Positions 1,437-40,364 of a stretch of DNA of 40,595 nt are shown piece by piece. Below the pieces are notes generated by a model. The model made no database searches. It had not been told where the DNA came from and was given only the letters and a program-made list of their open reading frames with translations. Both the position numbers and the translations under genes were made by a program. How positions within the stretch are numbered: position 1 is the stretch's first letter; the number at the start of each line of letters is the position of its first letter. The DNA comes from Neocallimastix lanati (nom. inval.). Taxonomy: Eukaryota; Neocallimastigomycota; Neocallimastigomycetes; Neocallimastigales; Neocallimastigaceae. The DNA lies in contig JACVTC010000348.1 of assembly GCA_016946835.1 (NCBI GenBank), forward strand, positions 1 through 40,595, read 5' to 3'.

Positions 1437-1442
1437 CATCAC

Positions 1443-2266
1443 TGGTACAGTATTGAAGATTATTAAAAAAAAATATATTCTAATAATTAAAAATCTAATT
1501 TTTCACTAACAAAATAAATATTATTATAACTATTCTAATATAAATAACTTAAATAAATATTTTAATAAAATTTATCTCTAAATTAAAACTGAATTACCAA
1601 ACAAACTAAATATTTAAACTAACCAAAATTATTTTTATCCTTAACTATAATAAAACACAAAAACAAGACTAATCAATTTAACTAGAGAACAATTTAATTT
1701 TATTTAATTATTTATTTAATTATTTATTTATACTAATACTAAATATTTACTATTTCGTTCTCGAAAAATTAAAAGAAAAATATAAAAATAAAGTTGAAAG
1801 AAGAGGAAGAACTAAAGTATTGTTTTACTTTGTTCTTTTTATATCTTTAAAACATTTATTTGATTGGAGTAAAAATAAAAATATAAAATATAATGAAATA
1901 TAATAACAAAAAATATAATAATTTTATAATAATAAAATATAATAAAATATAATTTTAATATAATATTTAATATAAGATAATAATAAAAATATAATAAAGT
2001 ATAATAAAATTTTTTATAATAAAAATATAAAATAATAATAAATATAATTTTAATTATTTATAATAAAATATCTAATTGTTTACTATTACAATATTAAATA
2101 AATACAATTAATACATTATTTTAAATAATTTAGTTATTTATACATATTTAATTTCCTTATTATATATTTTAATACTTTAATATTTTATTCTTATTCATTT
2201 ATTAATTAATCTTATTAGTTTATTTAATTTTTTATTTATTTTTTATTTATTATTTGTATCGTAACA
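1443..2266 (-). repeat. G1 3' LTR
   Basis: The 824-bp copy is repeated almost exactly at 8500-9326. In the sense orientation it starts TGTTACGATAC and ends CTGTACCA. Substitutions noticed against the other copy are all transitions, including one at a CpG. Confidence 0.95.
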
Positions 2267-2281
2267 TGATGCCACCCTAAG
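2267..2281 (-). promoter_or_regulatory. G1 polypurine tract
   Basis: In the sense orientation CTTAGGGTGGCATCA abuts the TG of the 3' LTR. G2 and G3 have the same arrangement with a shared GGCATC(A/T) end. This is the expected plus-strand DNA priming site. Confidence 0.7.
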
Positions 2282-2282
2282 A

Positions 2283-5200
2283 TCAGACTTCGTCCCTTGA
2301 AGTCTCAATTTCACATAATCTATACGGAACGATATTCTTTAAATGCACATTTCTTTCGGCTATTTCATTAGTAGCTGGATCACAAAGCGTTACTGTGTTA
2401 AATTGTTTTTTAACTATTTTCATTGGTCCTAAGAAATAAGGATCAAGTTTTCTTCTGTTTATATATTTAACTAATACTAAGTCACCAGGTTTATATTCTG
2501 CTTTAAGTCTTTTAACTTGTTTTCTTCTATCTTCCCATATTTTATTGGCAGTTTGAATATTGCTTATGGCTTCTATTTATCCATTTATAATGAGTAGTAA
2601 ACCTTCTAATTAAAAATTCATCTTCGCTTTCATAATTTTCCTTTTGTCTAAGTCAACATTAATTCAAATGGTTTGAAGGTCACGACGACCATACAACAAT
2701 TCAAAACTTGAAAATTTTGTTGTGTTTCATTTTTACAAGTACGTAAAGCCCATAACGCACTTGGTAATATTTCATCCCATATAGAAGTGTTTTTGTTGCA
2801 TAATAATCTTAAGTATTTTCCAATTTCTTTATTGCGGTTTTCAACTTCACCATTTGACTCAGGATGATAAGTAGCAACAAATTGAACGAAAACGCCATAT
2901 AAATCAAGAAATGCTTTTGTTTTATCGGAGCAGAATTGTGGACCATTATCAGTTACGATTACTTCAGGTATTCCAAATCGAGCAAAAATATCAGATAAAA
3001 ATTCAATTACATCATCGGATTCAATATTTTGTTTTGGTTTTTGCTTCAACCCATTTTGTTAGATAATCAACTAAGACTAATATATATTTATTTCCTTTCT
3101 TGGTTGTTGGGAGTGGGCCTATAATATCTAAACCAACTCTTGAAAACGGTTAATCCTGGTTTAGTAGCAATGTCTTCTGTTTGATAGTTAAATGACTGGG
3201 TCTAAATAATTGGCATCTTTCACAGGTTTTTACAATATACTTAACATCAAGAATCATATTAGTCCAATAATAGTCACGTTTAAGTCTATTATAGGTTTTA
3301 AATACACCTTCGTGACCAATTTTATGCGCTTTTAATATTAAATCAACTTTTTCGTCTTGATTATTAATAACTTTTCTCAGTTTACCATTATCCTTAAAAT
3401 ATTCTTCATTATTAATTACTATGAATTTGTCTTTATAACAAGAAAGTAAATTATTTGAATTATTTTCACCTATTTCACTTGTTATGGTACTTATAATTTT
3501 ATTATACTCAGTATGTAGTCTGGATAAAGCATCTGCTATAACATTCTTTTTTCCTGGTTCATATAATACTTTAACTTTTAACATCGAAAGAAGTAAAACC
3601 CAACGTGTTTGCCTAGAATTATTGGTTTCTTTGTTTTTGAATAATCCTACTAATGGCTTGTGGTCTGTGTAAAGAAGTGTTTCATACTTATTTCCAGCAA
3701 TATAAGACTTAAATTTTGTAACACAGTAAGTCGCGGCTGTACCCTCAAGATCTGTTATTGCATAATTCTTCTCCGCCGGCTTTAAAGAGCGACTTACAAA
3801 ATGAATAGGTTTTTCAATGTTGTTTTCATCTTTTTGAAGGAGAACTCCTCCAATACCATCATAAGAAGGGTCAGTACGGATAATAAATTGTTTATCAAAA
3901 TTAGGCATAGTTAAAATAGGAGCAGAAGCTAACATAATTTTTAATTCATTGAAACTATCATCTTGTTCTTTATCCCATATAAATTTAACACCTTTCTTAC
4001 ATAATTTGAACAATGGTTTAGCAATATTAGCAAAGTTGAATATAAACTTTCGATAATAGCCGACTGCACCAAGAAAGGACTGTAATTGAATGATATTTCT
4101 TGGTGGAATCCATTCTAAAATAACTTGAATTTTTTCTTGTATAGGGGAAATTCCATTAATTGATAAAGTATGACCTAATAAATTGACTTTTTCTTTGAAG
4201 AAGTTGCATTTTTCTAAATTAATTTTTAAGTTATTTTCTTTAATGATGTTGAATACTTTATTGAGATCCTCTATATGTTGTTCAATAGAAGGAGAGAATA
4301 CAACTAAATCATCAACGTAGACAAACATACAAATTCCAATAAGTGGTAGAAATATCCTATTCATTTCCCTTTGGAAGGTTCCGGGAGCATTACATAATCC
4401 AAAAGGCATTACTCGAAACTGGTAATTGCCATACATAGCGGTGAAACTTGTTTTAGGTATATCGTCTTTATACATTGGAATCTGATGAAAACCAGAAAAT
4501 AAATCGATTGTAGTGAACACTTTAACCTCAGTTCCAATTGAAAATAATATTTCATCGATTAAAGGTAATGCATAGGCATCTTTTATTGTGACGGTGTTTA
4601 ATTTCCTAAAGTCCACACACAATCTCCATTTTTTATTCTTTTTTAGTACTAATATAACTGGAGAGGACCAGGGAGAATTGGAAGGTTCAATTAACTTGTT
4701 ATTTATAAGTTTTTCTAATTCAACCTTAAGTGCTTTAGCTTGAACCCTAGAAAGCCTATAACATCGTTGTTTTATTGGTTTGGCATTATCTACTAAATGA
4801 ATTCTGTGTGGTAATAATTTTGTCGGTTGAAGTTCTTCAATTTTTGTTGCAAAAATAGTGGAAAATTCTTTTAATAATTTTCTAACCTTCTTTTTATTTT
4901 TATTGGGAATTTCAATTATAATGTTTTGTAGTAAAGTCGCCTTTTTATTTTCATCTTCATCAATTTTATTATTAACTTTGCTATCATTATTATTATTTAT
5001 AGTATTTAATTCTTCATTATGGTTTTCCAACAATTTATTATTATTTTCATCTTTATTTTCATTAATAAAGCAGTATAAATAAGAATTGTTATTAATATCA
5101 GAATTAGATTTATCATCTGTATTTATTGATTCATCTTCTTCATCATCGTTAATAATATCTTCATTATTTTCTTTTCCAAGTTTGTTAAACATTTCCATGA

Positions 5201-6277
5201 ATTATTTTCTTTCATAAGACATAAAGAATTATTTATTGGGTTTATAAATAAATTATTATCTTTAAGTGTTCCATAACCAATTAAAATATCAAATAAATTA
5301 TGTTTACTATCAATAACTCTAAAAATATCGTGTAAATTTAACTTTCCAATATTAACATTTAATAAATATATCTCTGTATACACATTTTCTTTTGATAAGA
5401 CTTGTACAATATTATTTTTTACATATCCCACTGGTTTAATATTTCCTAGCTTGTTTAAGAATTGTTTGGTAACTATATTTATACTAGCACCTGTATCTAG
5501 AAAAGCGATTCCTTTTACTTTATTAATTCGACATTCTGTTGTTGCTACATCATCTCTAGCCACTACTGATAAGATGATTTCTTCTGGAGTTTTCTTATTT
5601 ATTGCAGGGCTTTTCAGCCTCAATGCTTTTATAAATTCCGCTCGTAATTTTGGACTAATATCTAATAATTGTGAAAATGTAATATTTGCAAATTTATTAT
5701 TGTGATCATTTGTTATATCATATTTTGGTTGTCCATCCATTATCATAATGTGTTTTTCTATTTTATCCGTATTATTATTTTTTGTTTTTCTTTCTTCTAA
5801 TTGTGTACTTGGTAATTTATTTTGTTTATTAATATTAGTTTCTTGAATAATATTTTCCGATTCTTCAATGATTTCTTTTTCTTTTTGTTTTTTAGCATTT
5901 TGTTTCGCTTTGTTGATAGATGGTTGTGCTAAAACTGAAACGTCAATTTCATTAAGTCTTTCAGTTTCAGTTGAATGTGTTGTAATAGGTAATATTGAAA
6001 TATCATTCTCAGTTTGAATTTTATTGCTATTGCTTTTATGGACATCAAAACTAGCATTCGTATTATTGTTTTCAATTGTTTGTAATTCATCATTTTCTAA
6101 TTCCATTTTTTCAACTTCATTATTATGATTATTCTTTGTATTAATAGTTTTATTTGTTTTTGTTTTAGTCTTACTATAAGGCTTTTCTTTATTTGTTTTC
6201 TTATTATTTCTTACGGCAACAGCAACAACTTCATTTTTGGTTTGATTGTTGGAAGTTTTCCTTCTTCCATTTAAAAG
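2283..6277 (-). pseudogene. pol: G1 pol, frameshifted
   Basis: Pol is read in the -1 frame relative to gag, entering at the slippery site at 6277-6283. Order: a basic Asn-rich linker; aspartic protease with an intact D-T-G (FLDTGASINIV); reverse transcriptase with VDD catalytic motif; RNase H; integrase with HHCC (AHKIGHEG...CERCQ) and a DDE core (TDNGPQF, YHPESNGEVEN); and a C-terminal GPY/F-like domain ending near 2283. The reading frame is broken near 5190-5215, 3120-3165, 3045 and 2700-2720, mostly at A or T runs. A shift or stop also follows the DDE domain, before the C-terminal part. Homology to G2 and G3 Pol resumes in another frame after each break. The sites could be true decay or homopolymer sequencing errors; the short damaged stretch at 2570-2650 favours at least some real decay. 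Confidence 0.9.
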
Positions 6278-6283
6278 TTTAAA
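6250..6283 (-). promoter_or_regulatory. G1 gag-pol -1 frameshift signal
   Basis: The heptamer T-TTA-AAC (complement of 6277-6283) is in the correct phase at the end of gag. After an 8-nt spacer follows a stem TGGAAG/CTTCCA (6264-6269 with 6250-6255). The -1 frame is open from here straight into Pol. A second, pseudoknot-forming pairing like that of G2 and G3 is not obvious. Confidence 0.8.
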
Positions 6284-7233
6284 GATTCATTATTATTCTT
6301 TTCTTCCATTTCTGCAAGTTGTTTGAAAGAGTAAAGACAATGATTGTAATAATGACCCTTTTGACCACATCTATAGCATGTTTTTTGATTATTATAAGTT
6401 GATTTCGTTTCATTAATATTATTATTATTAGAAAAGTTTGATTCTTTTCTTGTAATTGGATTATTGTTTGTATAATTATTGGCTTTATCATTATTAAAAT
6501 GAATTCTATTATAATTATTTTGAAAATCCGCATTTCCTTTGTAATATCTTTGATTAAAATTATTTTTCTTGATGTAACTTTGTCTTCCGTTAAAAGTGCA
6601 ATTATAATTTATTGTTTTGGCTTGTCTGTAAGGATTAACTGTATAATTATTATTGTTGTAATAAAATGGATGATTATTATATAATGTTGTCATTATAACT
6701 TCATTATTGTTATTTCTTCTTTCTTCAGCTCTTTCGGCAAGTTCAGCTTCTTCAAATGCATCTTCTAAATCCAAACATCTTTGTGTAATTACTTGTGATC
6801 TTGCATAGGGTCTATAAATAATTGATTCTTCATAATCTTCTACTGTAATAAATGTTTGGTAAAATTTTGGGAGATTATTATACATTTTTTTATATCTCCA
6901 ATTGAAATTTCTTATGCTTTCTCCTTTCTGAATTCTTAACTTTTGAAGCCGTTTGCATTTTTCTTGTGGTGTTATGTCTAAAGCCTTCTCAATTGCGTCC
7001 TTAATTTCTTGAATTGTTGGATAATTTTGAACACCATCTTCAATTGTATATAAGTCTTGTATTATTCCCCTTAATTTTCCTTCAACGCACTCCATTGCCC
7101 AGGAGTGTATACTCATTGGATTGGTAATATTGGCTAGAGACATGATTCTTGTGAATTCGTCACACCAAGAATCAATATCTCTATCGTATTCATTAAGACG
7201 GGGAAGCAAACTTTCTAGTTCTAATATTTTCAT
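6271..7233 (-). CDS. gag: G1 Gag
   Basis: This 320-residue capsid/nucleocapsid protein forms the virus-like particle that packages element RNA. The middle matches the retrotransposon capsid fold region (ITPQEKCKRLQKLRIQKGESI...FNWRYKKMY), parallel to the LRALRIKRNERIKDFN segment of G2 and G3. It is followed by an Asn-rich tract and one CCHC zinc knuckle (CYRCGQKGHYYNHC) about 30 residues from the C-terminus. It lacks the long acidic insertion of G2 and G3 Gag. The start is the first ATG of the open frame. The stop TAA at 6271-6273 lies four bases downstream of the slippery heptamer, so most ribosomes should end here and a minority continue into Pol. Confidence 0.93.
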   Translation of the reverse strand: MKILELESLLPRLNEYDRDIDSWCDEFTRIMSLANITNPMSIHSWAMECVEGKLRGIIQDLYTIEDGVQNYPTIQEIKDAIEKALDITPQEKCKRLQKLRIQKGESIRNFNWRYKKMYNNLPKFYQTFITVEDYEESIIYRPYARSQVITQRCLDLEDAFEEAELAERAEERRNNNNEVIMTTLYNNHPFYYNNNNYTVNPYRQAKTINYNCTFNGRQSYIKKNNFNQRYYKGNADFQNNYNRIHFNNDKANNYTNNNPITRKESNFSNNNNINETKSTYNNQKTCYRCGQKGHYYNHCLYSFKQLAEMEEKNNNESLNF

Positions 7234-7397
7234 TTTAATACAATTGAATATTGATGGATGGATTGATAAGTGAATGAGTTTTTGTTGTTTTTGTTAATTA
7301 TAAAATTATTCTTTATTTCCTATAAATATTTTTTATTATTTTTTGCTTGAACTTATTGAATTGACTTTTTAATGGATGACTAATTAGAAGTATTGAT

Positions 7398-7428
<31 letters not shown>

Positions 7429-8364
7429 GAATAATATAAAGTGAAAATTTCTTAATTATAAATTTAAATTTAGAATGATGATTATTTTTAAATTAAACTG
7501 ATACTGAATTGAAATTGAATAAATTGAAATTAAAAATGTGTGAATGAAAATTTTTATTTATTTATTGAATTGATTAATTATTTTGATGTATTGAAAATAA
7601 AACTTTATTTTTATATTCTTATAAAGATTTGTAAGGTGGACCTTACACCTTCGGTGATATAAGTTCATTATTGTTCCAGTGCTCGATCTTGTCCAAAAAC
7701 CCTGACAACACTCGGATAGTTGATAAACTACGGAAAGTGCCGTGGGGAGTATAATTATTACTTTGGGACGTATTCACGCACTCACGAGATCGATTAAAAA
7801 CCTTAATTAGTAAAAATTGGAATCACCCTAATTCTTTACTAATTAATTTTCAACCGGTTTACACACTGTATATAAATCTTTATAATTTTTGGTTTTAATT
7901 TCTCTTTTGAATGAAAATAATAAATATACTTTTTTATCAGTATTTAATAATCTTATTTTTTATACTATATACTATTTATTTTAAATTTAATTATAAAATT
8001 TAAACTTTCCAATATCAAAATTAACAAAAATTTTACTTTAATTATTTAATTCCCTATTTACCTACTAACTATTTTCAATAATTTATTACTAATATTTTTT
8101 TTTTTTTTTTTTATTACCAATAATTTTATTAATAAAATTTCCAAATTAAATTTATAATCCAAAATTTTATTTTTATATATATATATTTTTTATTATTATT
8201 ACCAATAATTTTATAATAAAATTTCCAACTTTAATTTATAATCCAAATATTTTTTTTTTTTTTTTTTTTTTTTCAATTTTCTAATTATTCTATTGGCTAA
8301 ATTTCAAAATTTTTTTTTTTTTTTTTTTTTTTCAATTTTCTAATTATTCTATTGGCTAAATTTC

Positions 8365-8408
<44 letters not shown>

Positions 8409-8474
8409 CTACAACTTTATTATTTATCTAATATTTTTAATTATTATTTTCATATTATTTTTTTTTATCTTCAG
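7234..8474 (-). other. G1 5' leader
   Basis: About 1.25 kb separates the PBS from gag, without a meaningful ORF. Next to the PBS the sense strand holds long A tracts (8369-8409, 8311-8332, 8250-8272, 8092-8112) alternating with near-identical AT-rich units, for example 8273-8310 and 8333-8368. Another A tract of about 30 nt lies at 7400-7429, nearer gag. Between these sits a GC-richer structured segment (about 7640-7870). It has a long hairpin around 7800-7850, an outer stem pairing 7787-7793 with 7683-7689, and a conserved hairpin 7642-7663 with TCACCGAAGG in its loop, all in the sense orientation. The segment also occurs in G3 and S2. Role unknown; packaging, dimerisation or internal initiation are possibilities. 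Confidence 0.75.
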
Positions 8475-8492
8475 GTCCTGCATAGCTCGCCA
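8475..8492 (-). promoter_or_regulatory. G1 primer binding site
   Basis: In the sense orientation the site starts TGGCGAGCTATGCAGGAC, seven bases after the 5' LTR. Its complement ends in CCA preceded by plausible tRNA acceptor and T-stem sequence, so a tRNA 3' end probably primes minus-strand DNA. The isoacceptor is not identified. Confidence 0.75.
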
Positions 8493-8499
8493 AGATTTA

Positions 8500-9326
8500 T
8501 GGTACAGTATTGAAGATTATTAAAAAAAAATAATATATTCTAATAATTAAAAATCTAATTTTTCACTAACAAAATAAATATTATTATAACTATTCTAATA
8601 TAAATAACTTAAATAAATATTTTAATAAAATTTATCTCTAAATTAAAACTAAATTACCAAACAAACTAAATATTTAAACTAACCAAAATTATTTTTATCC
8701 TTAACTATAATAAAACACAAAAACAAGACTAATCAATTTAACTAGAGAACAATTTAATTTTATTTAATTATTTATTTAATTATTTATTTATACTAATACT
8801 AAATATTTACTATTTCATTCTCGAAAAATTAAAAGAAAAATATAAAAATAAAGTTGAAAGAAGAGGAAGAACTAAAGTATTGTTTTACTTTGTTCTTTTT
8901 ATATCTTTAAAACATTTATTTGATTGGAGTAAAAATAAAAATATAAAATATAATGAAATATAATAACAAAAAATATAATAATTTTATAATAATAAAATAT
9001 AATAAAATATAATTTTAATATAATATTTAATATAAGATAATAATAAAAATATAATAAAGTATAATAAAATTTTTTATAATAAAAATATAAAATAATAATA
9101 AATATAATTTTAATTATTTATAATAAAATATCTAATTGCTTACTATTACAATATTAAATAAATACAATTAATACATTATTTTAAATAATTTAGTTATTTA
9201 TACATATTTAATTTCCTTATTATATATTTTAATACTTTAATATTTTATTCTTATTCATTTATTAATTAATCTTATTAGTTTATTTAATTTTTTATTTATT
9301 TTTTATTTATTATTTGTATCGTAATA
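8500..9326 (-). repeat. G1 5' LTR
   Basis: The 827-bp partner of 1443-2266 carries the element promoter. A TATA-like box TATAAAAA (complement of 8896-8903) is the best candidate. The terminal TG is TA here. Confidence 0.95.
8896..8903 (-). promoter_or_regulatory. Candidate TATA box of G1
   Basis: TATAAAAAG lies inside the 5' LTR in sense orientation. Calling a TATA box in such AT-rich DNA is weak on its own; its central position in the LTR supports it. Confidence 0.4.
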
Positions 9327-9331
9327 TCACA

Positions 9332-10354
9332 TGGTAAAGAATGAATTAATAACCTTTATTTTATTATTAATAATTCTTTACTAAATTGTACTTTCCTATA
9401 TTCTTCATAACCTAAACCTCATTGTAAATTTAATTTATTTTGATATAAATTAATTTACACTTGTAAATAATGTAAATAAATTTTAATTAATTACTTTATT
9501 GTTATATTATTAAATATATGTATATATTAAAATACAATTGTAAATATTAAAATTATACTTTAAGATACTAAATTATTAAAACTATTAATTAAATATTATT
9601 ATAAAAATTATTATAAATTATTAAAATTATTAATTAAATATTATTCTAAAAATTATTATAAATTATTAATATTATAAAATTATTAAAATTATTAAATATT
9701 ATTATAAAAATTTATTTATTATAACTATTAAATATTATTATAAAATTATTAAGATTATTAATTAAATTTATTATTAAAAATTATTATTAAAAATTTTTAC
9801 TTATTATAAAAATTATTATTTAAATATTATCAAATTTATTAATTAAATATTATAAAAATTTTATTTTATTTTGAAAATAATTACAAGTATTATTTAAAAT
9901 AATTAAAGATTATTAAATTTATTATATTAATCTTTAAAAACAATTTATTTAACTTAAAAATATCAAAGAAAATAGTAAAAACTATTTTCTATATATTTAT
10001 TTTATAATTATTTTTAATTAAATTATATTTGAATATTATATTATTATATTTATAAAAATTAAAACAAAAATGAATTATTGATATAAAATTAATTCAATAA
10101 TTCTATAAAATTACTTAAATTATAAACAACTAATTATACTTTAAATTCATAAAAAAATATAAATATTGTAACAATTTCTTAAAAATTAAATGTGTGTACT
10201 TTAAATAAAAAAAAAAACTTTTATATTAATAAAAAAAAAATAAATAATTTTTAATAAAGAATTATTTTTTTTTTTTATTTAAAATCAAAGCAGGGTAATA
10301 CCCGTCCCCCCCTGCTTGATTTTAAATATCTAAGTGTCAACCCCGAGTCTACCA
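9332..10354 (+). repeat. G2 5' LTR
   Basis: This 1023-bp LTR starts TGGTAAAG and ends GTCTACCA. Almost all of it is A/T except for a GC-rich hairpin close to its 3' end. Confidence 0.95.
10281..10323 (+). other. Stem-loop near the 3' end of the G2 LTR
   Basis: AAAATCAA-A-GCAGGG (10281-10295) pairs with CCCTGCTTGATTTT (10310-10323), giving 14 bp with one bulged A. The same hairpin is at 17306-17348 in the 3' LTR. It sits just before the PBS, where R-U5 structures and 3'-end processing signals of LTR elements are found. Confidence 0.6.
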
Positions 10355-10358
10355 AAAT

Positions 10359-10375
10359 TGGTGGAGATATCGGGG
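10359..10375 (+). promoter_or_regulatory. G2 primer binding site
   Basis: TGGTGGAGATATCGGGG lies four bases after the 5' LTR and complements a tRNA 3' end whose acceptor strand would read TATCTCC with discriminator A. The identical sequence serves G3. Isoacceptor not identified. Confidence 0.78.
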
Positions 10376-10835
10376 AAGAAGAAGAAGAAGAAGTAGAAGA
10401 AGAAGAAGAAGAAGAAGAAGAAGAAGAAGAAGACCAAGAAGTAGACCAAGTGGAAGAAGACCAAGAAAAAGAAGACCAAGAAGTAGACCAAGTGGAAGAA
10501 GACCAAGAAAAAGAAGACCAAGAAGAAAACCAAGTGGAAGAAGACCAAGAAAAAGAAGACCAAGAAGAAAACCAAGAAGAAGACCAAGAAGAAGACCAAG
10601 AAGAAGACCAAGAAGAAGACCAAGAAGAAGACCAAGAAGAAGACCAAGAAGAAAACCAAGAAGAAGACCAAGAAGAAGACCAAGAAGAAGACCAAGAAGA
10701 AGACCAAGAAGAAGACCAAGAAGAAAACCAAGAAGAAAACCAAGAAGAAGACCAAGAAGAAGACCAAGAAGAAGACCAAGAAGAAGAGACCAAGAAGGAG
10801 AAGACCAAGAAGGAGAAGACCAAGAAGGAAATTGG
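10376..10835 (+). repeat. Purine-rich tandem repeat in the G2 leader
   Basis: About 460 bp built from GAA, GAC and CAA triplets, mostly as a 12-bp unit (CAAGAAGAAGAC), follows the PBS directly. In one frame it would read Gln-Glu-Glu-Asp repeats, but that frame has no ATG and no relation to gag, so coding is not supported. G1, S1 and S2 have poly(A) tracts in the corresponding place. Confidence 0.9.
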
Positions 10836-10925
10836 AACTACTAGGACTTATTTTTTTTTTTGGAATTATGAGAATAATTTTTTTTTTTTAAATTAAATTT
10901 AATAGAATTAAATTAAATTAAATTA

Positions 10926-10964
<39 letters not shown>

Positions 10965-11330: not shown

Positions 11331-11560
11331 ATGAGTACAATTAATTTTAAAGATTTAAAAAAGGAACTTAAGGATATTGAAAAAATATCCAAAGAAAATT
11401 TAGATGTTAAAACTTGGAAGTCTGATTTAGAGCTTTGGATAAAGCTTGAACATGTTGAAGACTCCAAGATTATATTTTATGCCTGTGTTTTAACCTCAAT
11501 TGGTGAAACCAGGAAAGTCATCCAAGAATTAATGGATGATAATAATAAAGATGATGATAG

Positions 11561-11603
<43 letters not shown>

Positions 11604-30007: not shown

Positions 30008-30906
30008 GACTTTTTGGAATATATTTCTTTTTTATTTTTTTCCATAATCTTATTTAATTGAGGGCAATAGTATGAGTAATGACCTTCTTCCTTACAGAAG
30101 AAGCAAGTTTTAACGGATAAATTTCTCATTTTCTGGGTTGATTCTTCTATAATATCTTGAGGTTTCGGTTTATTATTTGTTTGATTTGTTTGGAAAGTTT
30201 CGTTTCTTCTTTTAGGATAAAGTCTTGAAGTAGTACTGTTTTGATTATTTTGATTATGTTGGGAATTATTAACATTATAGGTATTAATATTATTGTTCCT
30301 TACAGAAAGTCTATCTACTTTCTCGGCAATTTTGAAAGCTTTATCCATACTTATATCATCTTTAAGGGATAATTTCTTCCAGGCTTCATAATTATTTTGA
30401 ATAGAATCAATATAATCTAGTACACCAATGCGCTTTCTTCTCTTTTTATCAAGTTTAGTGTACAAAGTTCTATATCTTACATTAAAGTCTTTAATCTTTT
30501 CGTTTCTTTTAATTCGCATTGCACGAAGTTCTTTAAGAAGTAAATTTTGGTCTTCTTTAATACCGTAAAAATTTTCAAGACTTGAAATAATTTTTTCAAG
30601 GGAAGGAAATTTAATATCATCATCAACATTTTCTTCTTCATCATCATCTTCTTCTTCATCTGATGAATCATCACTTTCATCATCACTATCTTCTCCCAAA
30701 TCTTCAATAACGCGTTGTACTTCACCAGAGCTGGTAAGTAAACAAGCATTAAATATTGTTTCTGGATCTGTAATACCTTGTATCTTGATCCAAAGTTTTA
30801 ATTCAGTAGCCCAGGACTTAATATCTAAATTGTCCTTGCTAAGTTTCACAATATCTCTTAATTCTTTTTTCAATTCTTTAAAGCTCAAAGTTGTTTCCTT
30901 GGACAT
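29995..30906 (-). CDS. gag: G3 Gag
   Basis: This Gag is about 303 residues long. The ATG at 30904-30906 gives MSKETTLSFKELKKEL, aligned with the G2 start; a further ATG 22 codons upstream is open but adds an unrelated hydrophobic stretch. Features: N-terminal helical region, acidic Ser/Asp/Glu insertion (EDSDDESDDSSDEEEDDD), capsid-like LRAMRIKRNEKIKDFN, Asn/Gln-rich spacer, and one CCHC knuckle (CFFCKEEGHYSYYC). The end S-L-N-F-stop contains the slippery heptamer that feeds Pol synthesis. Confidence 0.93.
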   Translation of the reverse strand: MSKETTLSFKELKKELRDIVKLSKDNLDIKSWATELKLWIKIQGITDPETIFNACLLTSSGEVQRVIEDLGEDSDDESDDSSDEEEDDDEEENVDDDIKFPSLEKIISSLENFYGIKEDQNLLLKELRAMRIKRNEKIKDFNVRYRTLYTKLDKKRRKRIGVLDYIDSIQNNYEAWKKLSLKDDISMDKAFKIAEKVDRLSVRNNNINTYNVNNSQHNQNNQNSTTSRLYPKRRNETFQTNQTNNKPKPQDIIEESTQKMRNLSVKTCFFCKEEGHYSYYCPQLNKIMEKNKKEIYSKKSLNF

Positions 30907-31075
30907 TTTGTTTAAATATTTCTTGTTGTATATTAATGAGGTGATTAAATAAGAATAAATTTGGAAATACAACTTTAAAAATATAATTTAATAGGTAATT
31001 TAATATCGAATCAATTTTTAAAACAATATATTTTAGTAACTTTTGAAAATAATAATTTTATTTGCTTTCTTTAGT
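30907..31075 (-). other. G3 leader, gag-proximal A/T stretch
   Basis: Only A/T-rich sequence without repeats or pairing of note; it separates gag from the hairpin array. Confidence 0.6.
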
Positions 31076-31081
31076 AGATAT

Positions 31082-31270
31082 AAGCTCGAAATCCTTATCG
31101 ACAACTTAGTAGAAATTATAAAGCACGAGGTTCTTTTCGACTACTTTATTAAGAATAATTTTTAAGTTCGAAATCTTTATCGACAACTCAATAGAATAAT
31201 TTTAAGTTCGAAATCTTTATCGACAACTCAATAGAATATTTTTCAAGCTCGAAACCTTTATCGACCACTT
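31082..31270 (-). repeat. Array of five small hairpins in the G3 leader
   Basis: Five copies of a roughly 26-nt unit (plus-strand consensus AAGTTCGA...TCGACAACTT) begin at 31082, 31121, 31164, 31204 and 31245, spaced about 40 nt apart by A/T linkers. In each unit the ends pair, AAG and CGA with TCG and CTT. Copy 2 has changed several bases but keeps CGA/TCG and AAG/CTT. This points to a repeated RNA hairpin rather than a simple DNA repeat. Confidence 0.75.
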
Positions 31271-31475
31271 GAATTTTGTAATTTAGTATATTTGTAGTAA
31301 TAAATTTAGAAGCAAAGTTTTATTTATTATTTTCACCTTTCAAAAATTTTTCTTTTTAAACGATAAATATTGTATTGTTATAGCTAATAAAATTATTAAT
31401 TAATTATAATTATTAAATACAAAAAAATAATCTTTATTGTCGTACAATCTGATAGTACACACTGTCTGACGTGCA

Positions 31476-31584
31476 GCTTACCTAATGGTGTCATGCCACG
31501 CGTGTGCCACGATTACTATATTCAATATAAAATATAGCAGTTCAGAGCCTACTAGCCCAATTACTATGTAGGATAAACTTAATC
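31476..31584 (-). other. G3 leader, cloverleaf-like module shared with S1
   Basis: In sense orientation GTTTATC (complement of 31572-31578) pairs with GGTAAGC (complement of 31476-31482) and closes three hairpins: CCTAC/GTAGG, CTATATT/AATATAG (31531-31537 with 31516-31522) and a GC-rich arm. Constant linkers AGGCTCTGAACTG and AATCGTGG match S1. An additional stem GTAC/GTAC lies next to it (about 31442-31458). Confidence 0.75.
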
Positions 31585-31851
31585 CGATAATCTATGTACG
31601 GAATAAAAAAAATTTTAAAAGTATTCAATAATATTTTTATTAACTAATAAAAATTAACTAAAAACACAATATTTTCAAGTAAATTAAGATTCTTTTACAG
31701 GAATTATTAAACAAATAAAGTATCAGTAATAAAAAAAAAATAAAAAAAATTTAAATGGCGAAGTTAGCCAAAGTCTGATACTTTATATAATAAAGTGCCT
31801 TATAACTAGCACAAAGAAAAGTAAAAAAAAAATATATATAAAAAAAACAAT

Positions 31852-32090
31852 CTTACGCCTTCGGTGACGTAAGCTCCTTATTCGCCAGTGCTTGGAAAGT
31901 ACCCGCACCTTCGTGTGTTGAAACGTTGAAGGCTGAACTATTATTACCGGGTCGGTAACCAAATACCTTCGTCTACTTTCCAATTAATCTCCAAATTAAC
32001 TACTATTCAATAACCTACTATGAATAGAGTTAATTTGTTGCTATCTGAGAATACACTGTGTATGAGCTCTATCCGCTCCTTGTTATAATT
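31852..32090 (-). other. G3 leader, module shared with G1 and S2
   Basis: In sense orientation there is a 9-bp hairpin AAATTAACT/AGTTAATTT. It is followed by a 10-bp stem TTGGAAAGTA/TACTTTCCAA (complement of 31974-31983 and 31892-31901) enclosing GC-rich arms, then the constant AGCACTGG, GCGAATAAGGA, and a hairpin CTTACG/CGTAAG with TCACCGAAGG in the loop (31852-31873). G1 and S2 keep the constants with different stem bases. Confidence 0.75.
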
Positions 32091-32272
32091 TTACAAAATT
32101 TGTTTTTTTTTTTTTGAATCTTAATTTTACTTATTTAAAAAAAATTTTTTTATATATATATCAAACAAGCGCCATAGGTTAATCAAAGGATTAACGACTT
32201 ACTTGTTTATCAATATAAAATAAAAAAAAATTAAAAAAAATCTATGTTATTTACTATTATTTCTATTTAATT

Positions 32273-32289
32273 CCCCGATATCTCCACCA
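32273..32289 (-). promoter_or_regulatory. G3 primer binding site
   Basis: In sense orientation TGGTGGAGATATCGGGG, identical to the G2 site and six bases from the 5' LTR. Same tRNA primer inferred. Confidence 0.78.
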
Positions 32290-32295
32290 TATAAA

Positions 32296-32617
32296 TGTTA
32301 AGGTTTTAGAGAATTAAATAAAAATAAAGTAAGAAACACAAATTTTATTTTTTTATTTATTATTTTTATTTATAAATTTATTTTATTTTATTTTATTTTA
32401 TTTTATTTTATTTGATGATATTTAAAAATTAGTAGCAAAATTTACAACTATTTATACTTTTTTTTCAAGGCATAAAAGTTGTTCTTGCCACTAAATTACA
32501 TTTTATTATTATTTTTCTTTTTATATATAAAACTATTAAATTTAAATTGATTTTTATAATCAATTATATAAAATTTAATTATAACAATATAAATAAAATA
32601 CATTTATAATATTAATA

Positions 32618-32665
<48 letters not shown>

Positions 32666-33152
32666 CTATCTAAAATATTACTAATAAGAATTTATTTAAT
32701 TGGCTAAAATTTTTATTACAATCTGTTAAAATATTCAAATAAAAATAAAAATACTATTCTAATATAAAGGTTTTTAATAAAATAAAATATTTTTCAATAT
32801 AAAATAAAACATTTCGATATAAAATTTTATAATAAAAGTTAAAATATAATATATAAATTTTTAATTATCAATATATAAAAATATTATTAATACAAATTTT
32901 CATTATTAATATAAAAATAAAAAAATAAGATTTATTATTAATATTGTTAATATAAGTTTTAAATATATAAAAATATTACTATTAATATAAGATTTAATAT
33001 AAAAATTATAAAGTTTAATATAATTTTTGATCTAATTTTTAATCTTTGAATTTAAAAATTTATTAAAGTACAAAAATAATAATGTACACATAATGTATTA
33101 GAAATAAATCGTAGATTTAATTAAGAATGCATTATTTAGTACATTCTTATCA
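32296..33152 (-). repeat. G3 5' LTR
   Basis: This is the 857-bp partner of 25119-25978. Its final CA on the plus strand (33151-33152) forms part of the S2 target duplication. Confidence 0.95.
32449..32456 (-). promoter_or_regulatory. Candidate TATA box of G3
   Basis: TATAAATAG in sense orientation inside the 5' LTR is preceded by an A tract and a locally less A/T-rich segment. Confidence 0.5.
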
Positions 33153-33155
33153 ATT

Positions 33156-34032
33156 TGTAAGAATCTATAATTATTTGTTAGCAAATAATTATATTTTCTT
33201 AGTTAAGTTATTATAACTATAACTTTATTTAATTACATATAATATTTATTAAATTTATTTAATTTAATTTTAAATATTCATTAATTTAACAAAATTTATT
33301 TAATTAATTTTAAATAATATATTTACAATATGCTAAATTCTCTACTGTATTTAATGTATTTTGTATTGTATTTTATTCTGTATTTTATAATGTATTCTGT
33401 ATTTTATAATGTATTCTGTATTTTATTAACTATTTAATTTTATATTTTTAATATAAGGATAAATTATATGATCGAAATATCTTTTATTATTTTATTCTTT
33501 TATTTTCGATCATTAGATTGGAAAATCGGTTAATTAAGATTTTTTCCAATTACTTTTTAGAAGTAATCGGTTTTACTTAATTAATGCGATGATCGATATG
33601 GATAGAATATCGATCGAAAACTTATCTAGGTTTTTCTATCTAATCTTTTCCTAGATAAGAGATTTGTTAAGATTAGAAAACCCTTTCTTATTTAACCTTA
33701 TTTTCATAAAAAAATATAAATAAGGCTCTTGAGTTCTCTTTGAGAAATCAAGAGTTATTATTATAAAAAACATAGTTATAATAGTAACATTTTTATATTT
33801 TTAACTTTAATAAATTAATAAAAATATCTTATTCAAAAACATATTTTTAAGATCAATTTATACAAACAATTCTTCTCTTACATTTTGTGTTATTATTATA
33901 ATTAATTTTATAATAAACTCTACATTAAAGGTAAAAAAATTTATTTTATTTTATTTTCTCAACTTAATGAATTAGTCGTTAAGTTGTAGTTAATAATTCT
34001 ATTTTGAGTTAGTTCTTAATAGAATTATTACA
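33156..34032 (+). repeat. S2 5' LTR
   Basis: The 877-bp LTR runs TGTAAGAATC...GAATTATTACA. It has internal 17-bp-spaced TGTATTCTGTATTTTATAA repeats (about 33368-33425). Confidence 0.96.
33715..33761 (+). promoter_or_regulatory. S2 core promoter and predicted transcript start
   Basis: TATAAATA (33715-33722) is followed by hairpin CTCTTGA/TCAAGAG and the primer AAGAGTTATTAT (33750-33761), 35 nt after the TATA start. S1 and the solo LTR at 24375 share this layout. Confidence 0.7.
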
Positions 34033-34044
34033 ATAATAACTCTT
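34033..34044 (+). promoter_or_regulatory. S2 self-priming PBS
   Basis: ATAATAACTCTT lies immediately after the 5' LTR and is an exact 12-nt complement of 33750-33761. Confidence 0.82.
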
Positions 34045-34179
34045 CTTAGATTAGCTTAGGGTTAGATAAAATGTGAAAAATTTTTAGAATAGTGTAACAT
34101 TGAAAATTTTATTAGTGAATTAGTCTATTGAAATTATATATATTAGAATACAATAATAATATATAGCTAGAGTGGCACG

Positions 34180-34181
<2 letters not shown>

Positions 34182-34233
<52 letters not shown>

Positions 34234-34562
34234 TTTATTAGCAATTTTGATTGAAAAAAAAAAAAAAAAAAATTTTTTTTTTATTAGCAATTTTGATTGA
34301 AAAAAAAAAAAAAATTATATTAAAAAAAAAAAAAATTTATATTAAAAAAAAAAAAAAAAAATTTTTTTTAATAGTTAATAATAGAATAATAAATTAATAT
34401 TATAGAATAGTTTTAGATTATAATAATTTAATTAAAATAATTTTAGAATAAATATAATAATATATAATAGATTAGAATTATTTTAATAATTTAGAATTAA
34501 TAGTATAGAATAATAAATAATTTTAGATAATATAATTAAGAATAGAAAGAATAATTTAAAAT

Positions 34563-34600
<38 letters not shown>
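34182..34600 (+). repeat. Poly(A) tracts in the S2 leader
   Basis: A runs at about 34182-34229, 34254-34271, 34300-34312, 34345-34360 and 34567-34600, with a twice-repeated unit TTATTAGCAATTTTGATTG between the first ones. Length uncertainty from sequencing is likely here. Confidence 0.85.
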
Positions 34601-34603
<3 letters not shown>

Positions 34604-34674
34604 ATAATAATAATAAATAAATAAAGAAATAAATAAAAACATTAAAAAATAAATTAAAAATAACAAACTGAGAA

Positions 34675-34905
34675 GGTAATAATACCTTCATATATAGAGT
34701 TAGCCATCTAATTGGGGATGGTGAGTACATTTTTAGGTAGTAATAAAGGAAAGGTCTCCTTTTCCTATACCGTAGCGGTTTGTACTGTACGGAAATGCAG
34801 TATTTCACGTGAAAGTATAGGTTATCCGAATGTAGCTCTAGCGAATAAGGAACTCTTGGTCACCGAAGGCCTCGAGGTTCTTCAATATTATGTATTGAAG
34901 TAAAA
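34675..34905 (+). other. S2 leader, module shared with G1 and G3
   Basis: CCTATAC (34764-34770) pairs with GTATAGG (34815-34821). Downstream come GCGAATAAGGAACT (34841-34854) and GTCACCGAAGGC (34859-34870), both matching the G3 leader. The hairpin around TCACCGAAGG is less perfect than in G1 and G3. Small ORFs on both strands are incidental. Confidence 0.7.
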
Positions 34906-35210
34906 TTATATAGTTTTAATTTTAATAATGGGTTTTAACAGTTTGTTTATCCCAAACAAAATTGGTTATAGCAGTTATGTTTTTTTATGCTTGATTATAT
35001 AAAACTGCTATGGAAAACATAAAATATTTTTTTATGTTTTAATGGATCACTTTTGCCGGTTTTTGAATGTTGTAAGGCATAAGAAAGTGATATTGAATTT
35101 TAATTAAAATAATACTAAATATTGTATTTATGCAGAAGTTTATAATAAAGGATAAGTTTATAATAATATTTTGTTAATCATTTTAATTTAATTTCCAAGT
35201 ACGTAGTTGA

Positions 35211-35284
35211 CCGTTACTGGTAGGCTGTAACATTAGACCTACACCTCAGCCCTTTGGTTGATAAACCAAATGACGGTAACACGG
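35211..35284 (+). other. S2 leader, predicted three-way junction
   Basis: CCGTTAC (35211-35217) pairs with GTAAC-a-CGG (35276-35284). It encloses GTAGG/CCTAC (35220-35224 with 35238-35242) and TTTGGTT/AACCAAA (35253-35259 with 35264-35270). It lies 130 nt upstream of the gag-pol ATG. Confidence 0.6.
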
Positions 35285-35417
35285 GAAGGAAGAAATTAAA
35301 GTGTATTCTATAAAATATTTATTAATCAAAATCCTTATTATAATTCTTAATTTTGTGTAATAAAAATGTCCATTTTGTTAACTCTATCCTATTTTTATCT
35401 ATACTAAAGGCATAAAA

Positions 35418-38400
35418 ATGGATTTCAATAGTAATAAACAAGCAATTTCCTCAAGTGAAGTTAATAATTCCTATCTCCATGATGAAAATGCATCCAAACT
35501 TATTACTGCAATTGCTGACTTCATTCCTGCTTTCTTTTCTCCTAATGGTGTCCTCCAAAAGGAAAATGAAAGCAATAAACTAAATATATTAGAAATTTTA
35601 ATTCAAAGTGAAGATTTCTTTAAGGAGCATCCAAATTCTTTTCAAAAGGATGAACTAAAAAGTTCTTTTGTTATTAATAAACTTACTGGTACCGCCAGAA
35701 AATGGGGTCTTTCTCTTTTAACTGATGGTACTCTAAAGAACCTTGAATTTAGTAAGTTTAAGAAGCTCTTACTGGATAACTTTGATATTGGGAATGAAAG
35801 GAAGCAAAAATATGTCATCATGGAAAAGTTGTGGAAATTGAAACAACTTCAATTAGGAAATGTTGCTGAATATACTATTGAATTTCGGAGATTGGCTGGA
35901 CGTTTAGGATGGCCCGACGAAGTTTTAATCGATATAATCGGTAAGGGTCTACTTGACAAAGTCCGCGAAGAGTTTGATAAACTCGAAAAGCCATCTACTC
36001 TTTTTGAAGCTACCAACATTATTATTGGAATTGATAAGAAGTGTTTTTTGGAAAGTCGTCTACGCCACAATCAAAAAAATAAATTTAATGGAAAAATGTC
36101 GTTTCATAGGAAGAGAAACGATTTATTAAAATCAGAAAAGAATTCTAAACATTCTCATTTCAGAAAAAATAAGTCAAAAAACGACATACTTTCAGCAAAT
36201 TACACCCCGAATATTAAAACAACAATCACAACTACCTTCTACCTTGATATTAATGGAAGAAATATTAAGGCAAATCTATTAATTGATTCGGGTTCTGCCA
36301 GAAGTTTTATTTGTAAAAACTTCGCAAATTCTAATAAATTACCTGTGTTAGGACTCAATTCCCAAATCAACATCCAACTTCCTAATGGGAAAAGTATGAA
36401 TATCAGGCAAACTACTAAGCCCCTTAAATTAAAATTTATGGATCATAAGGAAACTTTTGAATTCTGCATTGCTAATCTATCTCTTCAGGGCATTAATGGT
36501 ATTCTTGGAAGGGATTGGTTATCCGTTCACAATCCTTTCATCGATTATAAAAATAATAGAATCTACTTCCTTGGTAGATACTGTGGCTCACATTGCCCAT
36601 CCTCCAAAAGTAATAAGTTTTTTTATCAAAATAAAAATATTACTGCTTCAATGTTGGAAAATTCAGAAGAAGATTCAGTATTACCAAATTCGGCTTTTGA
36701 TACAGATATCTCAGATTCTGATTTATGTGCCGCAATGATTGATTCAGAAGAAGTAAACACTGACGTTCAGGGAAAAGAAGAGATTATTAATAAATACTAT
36801 TCGGATCTTAAAATAGTATTTGAAAAGAAACAAGCTGAGAACTTACCACCCCATCGTGACTATGATATTGCTATTGAGCTTATTCCTGGTGGACAACTTT
36901 ATTTTGGTCCAATATACTCTCTTACTGTACAAGAACTGAAAGCTTTAAAGGATTATATTAAGGAAAACTTAAAAAAGAAATTCATTAGGAAGTCAAAATC
37001 ACCAGCAGGTGCTCCTATATTATTTGTAATGAAACGCGATGGTACCCTTAGACTCTGTGTAGATTATCGCCGATTAAATGCTATCACAATCCGTAATAGC
37101 TACCCAATTCCAAGAATAAATGACTTGATTGAATCCTTTCAAGGAGCTAAGATATTTACTCGTCTTGACCTTAGATCCGCTTATAACCTAATCAGAGTTA
37201 AAGAAGGTCACGAATATCTTACTGCTTTTAGAACCCCTTTAGGACATTTCGAATATCTCGTTATGCCTTTTGGACTTCGAAATGCTCCCTCGGTTTTTCA
37301 ACGTTTTGTACAAGATATCTTCAGTGATATCATTGGTTCTTTCGTGCAAGTCTATCTGGACGACATCATTATTTACTCTAACAACGAAGAAGAACATATT
37401 AAACATGTTAGGATCGTTCTTCAACTTCTCATCAACAATGGATTATATGCTAAATTAGAGAAATGTGACTTCCATGTTACTAAAACCACTTTCTTAGGCT
37501 TCACTGTTTCTGTAGATGGTCTCACTATGGATAAGGATAAGGTAAAATCTGTTCTGAATTGGCCTATTCCGAAGAATCAAAAGGAATTACAAAGTTTTCT
37601 AGGCTTATGTAATTTCTATAGAAAGTTTATCAATAATTTTGCCAAAAATATGGAACCTCTTCGTCGACTTTTAAGGAAATATACTACATTTAATTGGGAT
37701 GAATCAGCAAATGAAGCTTTTAATAAATTGAAAGAATCTTTTAAAGCTGATGAAGTGCTCATTTTTCATAATCCAGAGAAAGAATTCATCGTTGAAACAG
37801 ATGCTAGCGACTTTGCTGTCGGATGCATACTTTCTCAGGTTAGTGACACTGATAACTTATTGCATCCCGTAGCCTTCCATTCTAGATCCCTCAATAAAGC
37901 AGAAGTCAATTATACTATATATGATAAAGAACTTCTTGCTATAATTACTGCGTTTGAAACTTGGAGGCATCATTTAGAAGGCGCAAATTTCCTGTTCAAG
38001 TAATAACAGACCACAAGAACTTATTGTATTTAAGAAACCCCAACATTTAAATCAAAGACAAATTCGTTGGAGTCTCTTTTATCAAAGTTTGACTATAGGA
38101 TTGCATTCAGATCAGGCGTTAAAAGTGGCAAACCAGATGCTCTTTCAAGACGCCCAGATTTTAAATCTGACTCTTCATCTGAATCACAACCTGTAATTAA
38201 CAATAATGCTTTCTGTTGTGCTATAAATGACAATATTAGTAGTCTTATTGAAGCACAGAAAGCTGATAATTATTGTAAAAATATCCTCTTAAAAATAAGG
38301 GATAAGTCAAACAACATCAAAAGTTCTTTATTTTCCTTCGTCGATGGCGTACTCCACTTTCAAAAGCGTATTATTATCCCTTCCAGTCTCAGGGCTAGAC

Positions 38401-39459
38401 TTTTAAAGTCTTTCCATGATGCACCCACTAGTGGCCATCAGGGGGTAGATAGGACCTTTGAAAAACTCAGAAGGAACTACTGGTGGCCTAATATGAAAAA
38501 AGATATTTCAAATTATGTGGCTTCTTGTGATGTTTGTTGTAGAAATAAAATCCGTCGTCATAAACCTTATGGTAAACTAATACCACTTCCTACTCCTACA
38601 AAACCCTGGGAAGTTATTGGCGTCGATTTTATTGTTTCATTGCCTTCTTCACAAGATTGCACTTGTATCATGGTTGTTTCTGATCATTTAACCAAAATGA
38701 TTCATTTAGTACCCTGCTCCGATGTTCCCTCTGCCGACTTAACTGCTAAGCTCTTACTTTTCCAAGTCTTTAAGTATCATGGTTTTCCTAAAGTGATTGT
38801 GTCTGATCATGGTTCCCAATTCTCTTCTCAATTTTGGACTTCGTTGTGCGATGCTATTCGTGCTAAACCAAGACTTGCTACTGCTCACCACCAACAATCA
38901 AATGGTCAGGTTGAACGGGCTAATGCTGTAATAGAACAATATCTTCGCTGCTATTGTTCTTCTGCTCAAAACGAATGGTGTTTCTACCTCCCTTTATGTG
39001 AAATGTCCTACAACAACTCCATTCACAAATCAATAGCTCAAACTCCTTTTCATGCTAACTATGGATTTGACCCAAATTGTGTTATTGATTCACCACCGAT
39101 TCTGCTAAAAGATAGTGCTTCTGTTCTTACTAGGGATTGGTCTTCACATTTCAATGCCCTTCGTCAACATCTAGTTAAAGCCAAAGAAGATTTTAAGAAA
39201 ATATGCTGACAATAAAAAATCTGTAGGACCTGACTTTAAGGTAAATGATTTGGTTATGCTTAGAAGATACTACTTTACGAATGAACCCTCTAGAAAATTA
39301 TCCACTCAATATCTTGGACCTTTTAAAATCATCGAGAAAAGGGAAAGAATGAATTACCGTTTGGAACTTCCAGAGAACTTACATCTCCATCCGGTATTTC
39401 ATATCTCACAATTGGAACCATATACTAAAAGAAATGAAGACTTAATGGAAACATCATAA
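35418..39459 (+). pseudogene. gag-pol: S2 Gag-Pol, four single-base frameshifts
   Basis: Homologous to S1 Gag-Pol along the full length. The first frame (35418-38003) covers Gag, protease (LLIDSGSARSFIC), reverse transcriptase (YLDD) and the start of RNase H. The second (38067-39209) covers the end of RNase H and integrase (HHCC with SGHQGVD...CDVC; SDHGSQF; HHQQSNGQVERAN). The third (39250-39459) covers the C-terminal LGPFKIIEK and HPVFHISQL. Relative to S1 one base is missing near 37991, 38031 and 38077, and one is extra near 39198-39201, each in or beside a short homopolymer. The three deletions within about 90 bp restore the original frame. No chromodomain. Given nearly identical LTRs, sequencing error is a serious alternative to real decay. 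Confidence 0.92.
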
Positions 39460-39461
39460 TT

Positions 39462-39472
39462 AAACAGAGCAA
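39462..39472 (+). promoter_or_regulatory. S2 polypurine tract
   Basis: AAACAGAGCAA lies between the gag-pol stop and the 3' LTR. Confidence 0.6.
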
Positions 39473-40348
39473 TGTAAGAATCTATAATTATTTGTTAGCA
39501 AATAATTATATTTCTTAGTTAAGTTATTATAACTATAACTTTATTTAATTACATATAATATTTATTAAATTTATTTAATTTAATTTTAAATATTCATTAA
39601 TTTAACAAAATTTATTTAATTAATTTTAAATAATATATTTACAATATGCTAAATTCTCTACTGTATTTAATGTATTTTGTATTGTATTTTATTCTGTATT
39701 TTATAATGTATTCTGTATTTTATAATGTATTCTGTATTTTATTAACTATTTAATTTTATATTTTTAATATAAGGATAAATTATATGATCGAAATATCTTT
39801 TATTATTTTATTCTTTTATTTTCGATCATTAGATTGGAAAATCGGTTAATTAAGATTTTTTCCAATTACTTTTTAGAAGTAATCGGTTTTACTTAATTAA
39901 TGCGATGATCGATATGGATAGAATATCGATCGAAAACTTATCTAGGTTTTTCTATCTAATCTTTTCCTAGATAAGAGATTTGTTAAGATTAGAAAACCCT
40001 TTCTTATTTAACCTTATTTTCATAAAAAAATATAAATAAGGCTCTTGAGTTCTCTTTGAGAAATCAAGAGTTATTATTATAAAAAACATAGTTATAATAG
40101 TAACATTTTTATATTTTTAACTTTAATAAATTAATAAAAATATCTTATTCAAAAACATATTTTTAAGATCAATTTATACAAACAATTCTTCTCTTACATT
40201 TTGTGTTATTATTATAATTAATTTTATAATAAACTCTACATTAAAGGTAAAAAAATTTATTTTATTTTATTTTCTCAACTTAATGAATTAGTCGTTAAGT
40301 TGTAGTTAATAATTCTATTTTGAGTTAGTTCTTAATAGAATTATTACA
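39473..40348 (+). repeat. S2 3' LTR
   Basis: This is the 876-bp partner of 33156-34032, with TATAAATA at about 40031. Confidence 0.96.
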
Positions 40349-40364
40349 CAATTTATTTAAAAAT
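40344..40364 (+). other. Integration hotspot upstream of the tRNA-like gene
   Basis: Target duplications of all the insertions map, after removal of later ones, to between 21 and 12 bp before the first tRNA base. Only the S2 copy caatt (40349-40353) is still physically next to the gene. This is about where Pol III transcription would start. Confidence 0.75.

Follow-up and report, generated by a model that had tools for sequence, protein, structure and literature searches.

Serial insertion of Ty3/gypsy-type elements directly upstream of a tRNA-derived SINE in the anaerobic fungus Neocallimastix lanati

Introduction

The targeting of long terminal repeat (LTR) retrotransposons to genes transcribed by RNA polymerase III (Pol III) is a kind of system already known from yeasts and Dictyostelium (PMC5911963, PMC5006619, PMC4600332). 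Ty3 of Saccharomyces cerevisiae makes a 5-bp target duplication and integrates about 15 bp upstream of the mature 5' end of tRNAs (PMC5006619, PMC8632968); its cuts at -6 and -2 from the transcription start give the 5 bp, and the chromodomain of its integrase contacts TFIIIB (PMC8632968). DGLT-A of Dictyostelium, also a Ty3/gypsy element, lies 13–33 bp upstream of tRNA genes in either orientation (PMC5911963), and Tj1 of Schizosaccharomyces japonicus, a Ty3/gypsy element with a 5-bp duplication, lies upstream of Pol III genes (PMC4600332). Tf1 and Tf2 of fission yeast are found in promoter regions (PMC4600332). Here, we analyze a pile of such elements in the anaerobic gut fungus Neocallimastix lanati. 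It occupies contig JACVTC010000348.1 (C277), which was studied in its entirety (40,595 nt; hereafter “the window”) within a searched genome of 199.0 Mb in 762 contigs. Five coding elements (G1, G2, G3, S1, and S2) and two solo LTRs (A and B) are stacked immediately upstream of the tRNA-like head of a short interspersed nuclear element (SINE).

Compared with the described systems, this locus is closest to Ty3, with which it shares the Ty3/gypsy affiliation, a 5-bp duplication, a spacing of about 15 bp, and the best structural-database match of the S1 polyprotein; it differs in that several families of two sub-types are involved, tRNA genes share the role of target with a SINE, and S1 apparently has no chromodomain. 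DGLT-A belongs to another host group, and the targets named in the excerpts of its report are tRNA genes, with no SINE among them. The reported Pol III inserts of Tj1 all have one orientation, whereas both occur here (G2 and S2 on the plus strand; G1, S1, and G3 on the minus strand). We propose that integration at this locus is very probably Ty3-like and directed to the Pol III initiation complex, and that its targets include a mobile SINE.

Results

Insertions within a ten-base-pair stretch

Negative positions at this locus are counted from the first base of the tRNA-like head, position 40365 of the window. Upstream of it lie G1 (1443–9326, minus strand; LTRs at 1443–2266 and 8500–9326), G2 (9332–17379, plus; LTRs at 9332–10354 and 16357–17379), solo LTR A (17380–17909, strand not assigned), S1 (17916–24368, minus; identical LTRs at 17916–18706 and 23578–24368), solo LTR B (24375–25113, plus, oriented by a shared AAGAGTTATTAT motif), G3 (25119–33152, minus; LTRs at 25119–25978 and 32296–33152), and S2 (33156–40348, plus; LTRs at 33156–34032 and 39473–40348). 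The ends of the five coding elements were set by paired-LTR comparison together with terminal TG...CA, and those of A and B by TG...CA alone; borders taken from the search coordinates had mismatched at B, at A, and consequently at G2.

Stepwise removal of the elements by their duplications placed all seven insertions within -21 to -12. The duplications are CAATT for S2 (-16 to -12, running across the end of the G3 LTR), CACAC for B (-19 to -15), CCACA for S1 (-20 to -16), ACCA for A (-21 to -18; this LTR sits at the extreme end of the G2 LTR), CACA for G2 (-17 to -14), and TCAC for G1 (-18 to -15), and the G3 junction falls between -15 and -14. The right CACA copy of G2 is split by later insertions and matches exactly only once those elements are taken out. 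The duplications and positions of all seven elements in the original prediction, this split copy included, were thereby reproduced. Duplications are exact for six of the seven insertions (all but G3). The joint chance of these six is about 10^-13, taken over 27 positions with a per-position chance of about one third from base composition; this estimate ignores the moving of the A and B borders. G1, G2, S1, and S2 combine TG...CA with a short duplication, the right G1 LTR ending in TA through a substitution. For G3, whose TG...CA ends are present, a deletion or a recombination between two copies may account for the want of a duplication.

An eighth insertion is an old S2-like solo LTR on the minus strand. 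Its left piece lies at 1–457 and its right end at 1424–1436, followed by CATCA at 1437–1441; its outer end lies on contig C758 (locus L096), with CATCA just before it. Because CATCA both precedes the outer end and follows position 1436, the duplication of this LTR appears, from a reading of C758 together with the window, to occupy -20 to -16, which completes the predicted location of about -20. The LTR is 80% identical to that of S2 (reverse strand, over 297–458), and its part on C758 is 91% identical. Nested within it, and absent from the original prediction, is LTR X (458–1423, strand not assigned), whose borders were picked jointly with its duplication, ATAGA, at 453–457 and 1424–1428 (-33 to -29, inside the old LTR). 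A further LTR end, Y, lies at about -19 beyond the window; the same end adjoins a G1 copy in locus L060. Irregular tandem repeats with units of 9–15 bp occupy 10319–10843, beginning at the end of the G2 5' LTR.

The target is a tRNA-derived SINE

The stretch that had been taken for a tRNA gene is, as judged from its sequence and copies, the head of a 442-bp tRNA-derived SINE. The window holds its first 96 bp (40365–40460, plus strand), including the tRNA-like head at 40365–40439 with A- and B-box motifs of the usual consensus; the remainder lies on contig C106, which carries the whole SINE. ARAGORN gave the head a 2-nt anticodon, so that it departs from the canonical anticodon loop of a functional tRNA gene, and its Rfam RF00005 score was 38 bits vs. 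69.8 for the best tRNAs of the genome. No catalogued RNA other than tRNA was found at the target; the whole-window RNA scan missed even the tRNA-like head, and its silence thus carries little weight.

This head is abundant: it occurs 237 times in the genome at no more than one mismatch (control pattern, 0), and the best 40 of 341 candidate matches to 40350–40460 are scattered across many contigs. Copies were measured at 19 of 21 loci; L092 and L097, in which the 3' end was unrecognised, were skipped, and the duplicates L001, L002, L075, and L076 were excluded. A target duplication of at least 9 bp surrounds 18 of the 19 copies, vs. 7 of 342 mismatched left–right pairs. The SINE body measures 442 bp in 18 of 19 (L090 is 20 bp shorter), at 99.1–100% identity to the C106 copy, with that reference included. 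Where the duplication is clear (18 copies), the element starts exactly at the first tRNA-like base; the tails (L070, L077–L095) are T-rich, not A-rich.

On its left, the window copy is bordered by the target duplication ATTTATTTAAAAAT (40351–40364, plus strand), whose right copy follows the T tail on C106. The C106 copy is identical to the 14 bp that adjoin the window SINE, which confirms the proposed ancestral site in its proximal part, although this match does not reach the distal CATCAC. The last 135 bp of the window (40461–40595) depart from C106 exactly 96 bp into the SINE, reflecting either another insertion or a faulty contig end.

LTR ends at other Pol III genes

We compared 87 fetched tRNA and SINE entries, five of them from the window/C106 locus, with a library of the eight window LTR sequences. 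For an LTR end to count, a match had to span at least 100 bp, score at least 110 bits, and reach to within 12 bp of that end, a rule that misses older or broken LTRs; scoring was limited to the 40 top candidates of each LTR family. Seventeen pairs of a gene and an LTR end were found in which the end faces the gene from within 400 bp upstream (five from the window/C106 locus), and 16 of these ends lie at -14 to -19; the number of independent loci behind them is 11 or 12, depending on whether L024 and L025 are duplicates. The seventeenth, at -107, is itself the -19 end of a tRNA lying in between. The same position has thus been used repeatedly, by several families and at several target genes, a SINE included: the targets with ends at -14 to -19 comprise tRNA-Arg, -Asn, -Thr, -Val, -Gly, and -Trp as well as other SINE copies, and the families comprise G1, G2, G3, B, and S2 (one of the S2 LTRs, at tRNA-Thr, being 80% identical). 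LTR A yielded no example outside the window locus in the fetched loci. Among the tRNA loci that were fetched irrespective of LTRs (L009–L038), six of 30 have an LTR end at the expected place (L009, L020, L024, L025, L029, and L034); among the SINE loci outside the window locus (L077–L095), two of 19 do (L086 and L090), in both cases a G3 end at -17, with differing flanks. The narrow, repeatedly used hotspot and its analogy to Ty3, both proposed originally, are upheld by the exact duplications at -21 to -12 in the window and the LTR ends at -14 to -19 elsewhere.

Coordinates alone gave a compatible picture. When 446 LTR ends of six families were set against 152 listed Pol III genes, only three facing ends occurred within 3 kb: one at -17 and one at -15 of SINEs, plus the -107 end described above. 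This comparison left out C277, the S2 family, and 32 of 63 tRNA places, all on C555. On that contig, at about 170–400 kb, lie 34 of the 63 scored tRNA matches, all on one strand; the six that were fetched are tRNA-Arg(TCT).

The whole genome was also searched for the 8-base LTR end TTATTACA followed, after a gap of 58–88 nt, by a B box. There were 39 matches (control, 1). Gaps of 64–70 account for 25 of the 39 (8.8 expected if uniform) and a gap of 66 for 13 (1.3 expected); without the window locus, the figures are 23 and 11 of 37. A gap of 66 places the LTR end 16 bp ahead of the SINE, whose B-box offset is 50, and 13–17 bp ahead of usual tRNAs (offsets of 49–53 in all measured but one). Individual 8-mer matches may be chance, but the peak in the gap is not. 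Listed LTRs lie at four of these matches: one of S1 (C555:176799), two of B (on C67 and on C334), and one of S2 (on C262). On contigs up to C168, for which the list of SINE heads is complete or nearly so, SINEs make up three of the 19 matches: one on C17, one on C34, and, at the window locus, one on C106. This proportion is close to that of SINE heads within the full set of B-box matches (237 of 2010; control, 147). A partial test of the predicted enrichment of LTR ends near Pol III genes did not refute it, and the genome-wide junction search peaks at one distance.

Stacks at other G1 copies

Outside the pile, 29 of 41 outer flanks of G1 LTRs (26 loci) adjoin the terminus of another repeat within 3–9 bp; controls shifted by offsets of 20 to 100 bp gave 4, 4, 6, 3, and 2 of 41. 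This count excludes L039–L042 (the window locus and the C758 copy) and inner flanks, recognised by their similarity to the interior of the element; some elements are represented among the 26 loci by both of their LTRs, and the flanks of L045 and L047 are nearly identical. Stacks of this kind would be the expected trace of a spot that is struck repeatedly. Of the twelve remaining flanks, three run into Pol III genes, namely tRNA-Gly (L056), tRNA-Trp (L067), and a tRNA-like stretch (L044). The last, on the right flank of its G1 LTR, carries A- and B-box-like motifs very roughly 16–20 bp from the LTR on a reading of the sequence; neither ARAGORN nor Rfam reported it. It perhaps represents another SINE family.

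The coding elements form two sub-types

Pfam searches found reverse transcriptase, RNase H, and then integrase in one open reading frame (ORF) each of G2, S1, and G3 and in two successive ORFs of S2; in G1, the frames that were scanned extend no further than the integrase zinc-binding domain. By these domains, all five coding elements are assigned to Ty3/gypsy, and the claim that two different element classes share the spot is therefore unsupported. Two sub-types can nevertheless be distinguished, with 5-bp (S1, S2, and B) and 4-bp (G1 and G2) duplications, respectively, at a common target. In S1 and S2, the 12 nt right after the 5' LTR are complementary to the element's own LTR, a motif common to B; in G1, G2, and G3, the LTR is followed at a distance of a few bases by a TGG-type stretch.

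Tf1 is a self-priming element, and the promoter regions in which Tf1 and Tf2 are found are those of Pol II. S1 resembles these elements in its Tf2-1-like SH3 domain, and S1 and S2 do so in the self-complementary 12-nt site; they differ in location, as Tf1 and Tf2, in the available part of the report on them, are found in promoter regions and not at tRNA genes. Among PDB entries, Ty3 is the top match to the S1 polyprotein (E = 1.1e-145), with an alignment that extends to residue 1447 of 1547 and leaves 8 residues of S1 beyond its end. The chromodomain was located in the Ty3 polyprotein by counting the integrase numbering of PMC8632968 from the start of integrase. No Chromo domain was found in the 12 ORFs scanned; in G2, the protein continues as a tail past its integrase match. 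A relative of the G2 integrase recorded from Neocallimastix lanati is 100% identical over 48% of the query.

Order and age of the insertions

Overlapping duplications fix part of the order. Those of A, S1, and B contain the final bases of the G2 LTR, and G2 is therefore earlier than these three; G3 splits the right CACA of G2 and so is also later than G2; and the S2 duplication contains the last two bases of the G3 LTR, so that G3 preceded S2. G1 and G2, as well as A, S1, B, and G3 among themselves, would have the same appearance in either order. Thus, in the proposed consistent series of eight insertions, the positions stand, but the full order does not follow.

Age had been said to fall toward the target. 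Paired LTRs differ by 4 substitutions in 824 positions in G1 and 7 in 1021 in G2, vs. none in S1 (791), G3 (853), and S2 (876), which agrees with older elements lying farther from the target. The indels (1 in G1, 4 in G2, 0 in S1, 4 in G3, and 1 in S2) fail to separate G3 from G2.

Overlapping contigs

Two other contigs cover parts of the pile. C758 matches the left part of the window in three stretches (4.2 kb) with 0 substitutions and 7 gaps, and it tracks the window into S1 as far as it was read (base 731200 of 732543). C106, which begins inside G3, matches 29062–40460 (11.4 kb) with 3 substitutions and 15 small gaps. These matches suggest that C758, C277, and C106 are overlapping neighbours along one locus and probably not alleles. 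The idea that C758 is an allele without the later insertions, prompted by its absence from the B and G3 matches, was dropped, because it ends too early to contain the later elements. No true empty allele of the locus was found.

Discussion

How might such a pile arise? The first step would have been the insertion of a tRNA-derived SINE, which duplicated 14 bp of its target. The A and B boxes of the SINE presumably attract TFIIIC and, through it, TFIIIB to the DNA directly upstream, where the integration complexes of several Ty3/gypsy families would dock and cut about 12–20 bp upstream of the first base of the SINE. Because an insertion leaves the stretch adjoining the SINE unchanged, the site would be restored and open to further hits, and the stack would grow as newcomers landed at or near the junctions of earlier elements. 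The same process would operate at real tRNA genes elsewhere in the genome. In this scheme, we infer that Pol III occupies the SINE, that TFIIIB is the tether, and that the pattern reflects a choice of target and not selection.

Several observations weigh against this account. Stepwise removal found no target duplication at the ends of G3, unlike those of the other elements. No LTR end of the tested families lies at the expected place in 17 of 19 SINE loci or in 24 of 30 tRNA loci. Among 30 G1 LTR loci (flanks of up to 1.5 kb; four are the window locus), ARAGORN found a tRNA in three, at the expected place in two; and of the best 40 places for the S2 LTR, only C277 and C106 continue into this SINE. 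Six more LTR ends do not face the gene (+211 to +597): five of them face a neighbouring tRNA at -15 to -18, and that at L012 (+597) is unexplained. Finally, since the alignment of S1 to Ty3 stops at residue 1447 with 8 residues remaining, and no Chromo domain was matched, S1 probably lacks the chromodomain by which Ty3 contacts TFIIIB.

Might the elements instead prefer other LTR ends, or a short AT-rich sequence, with the SINE being incidental? The 29 of 41 outer G1 flanks that adjoin other repeat ends fit such a preference, as does the scarcity of tRNAs near most G1 loci. However, the distance to the starts of tRNAs and SINEs is constant at unrelated genes and flanks, which requires a reference point within the gene, and the G3 ends at -17 of two SINEs have different flanks; we therefore regard this explanation as quite improbable. 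It is very improbable, in our estimation, that insertion was random and that only copies in harmless places survived. The surroundings of tRNA genes are indeed regarded as safe in compact genomes (PMC5006619), but it is hard to see selection singling out a stretch of about 10 bp, and within 3 kb of the 152 genes there were no facing ends other than those at -15, -17, and -107, the last of which belongs to a neighbouring tRNA.

The pile could also be imagined as an assembly artefact that joined unrelated copies, given that the contig is short and mostly repeats and that its last 135 bp differ from C106. Against this, both C758 (4.2 kb, 0 substitutions, 7 gaps) and C106 (11.4 kb, 3 substitutions, 15 small gaps) agree with the window, and the duplications match over every junction except that of G3. 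We consider such an artefact extremely improbable.

Ty3-like targeting of Pol III initiation sites thus remains our preferred explanation for the pile. In the portions of the literature available to us, we found no account of LTR elements that target SINEs and none of Ty3-like targeting in anaerobic fungi, which is not proof of absence. Ty3-like targeting of Pol III genes has been described, in those portions, from yeasts and social amoebae, and an anaerobic gut fungus would add another fungal phylum, one in which the host genome is large, AT-rich, and repeat-rich. A published N. lanati assembly comprises 201.0 Mb in 970 scaffolds, with 18.3% GC (PMC12341934). If S1 truly has no chromodomain, some other region of its integrase must measure the spacing.

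A SINE as target links two classes of mobile DNA, and the pile is a naturally kept record of a single site being hit repeatedly. We think it rather likely that the SINE is a landing pad that spreads itself: wherever it inserts, it would bring a Pol III promoter and thereby create a new safe site. If so, at least two Ty3/gypsy sub-types would share SINE sites with tRNA genes, and one genomic parasite would seed others, giving rise to stacks throughout the genome.

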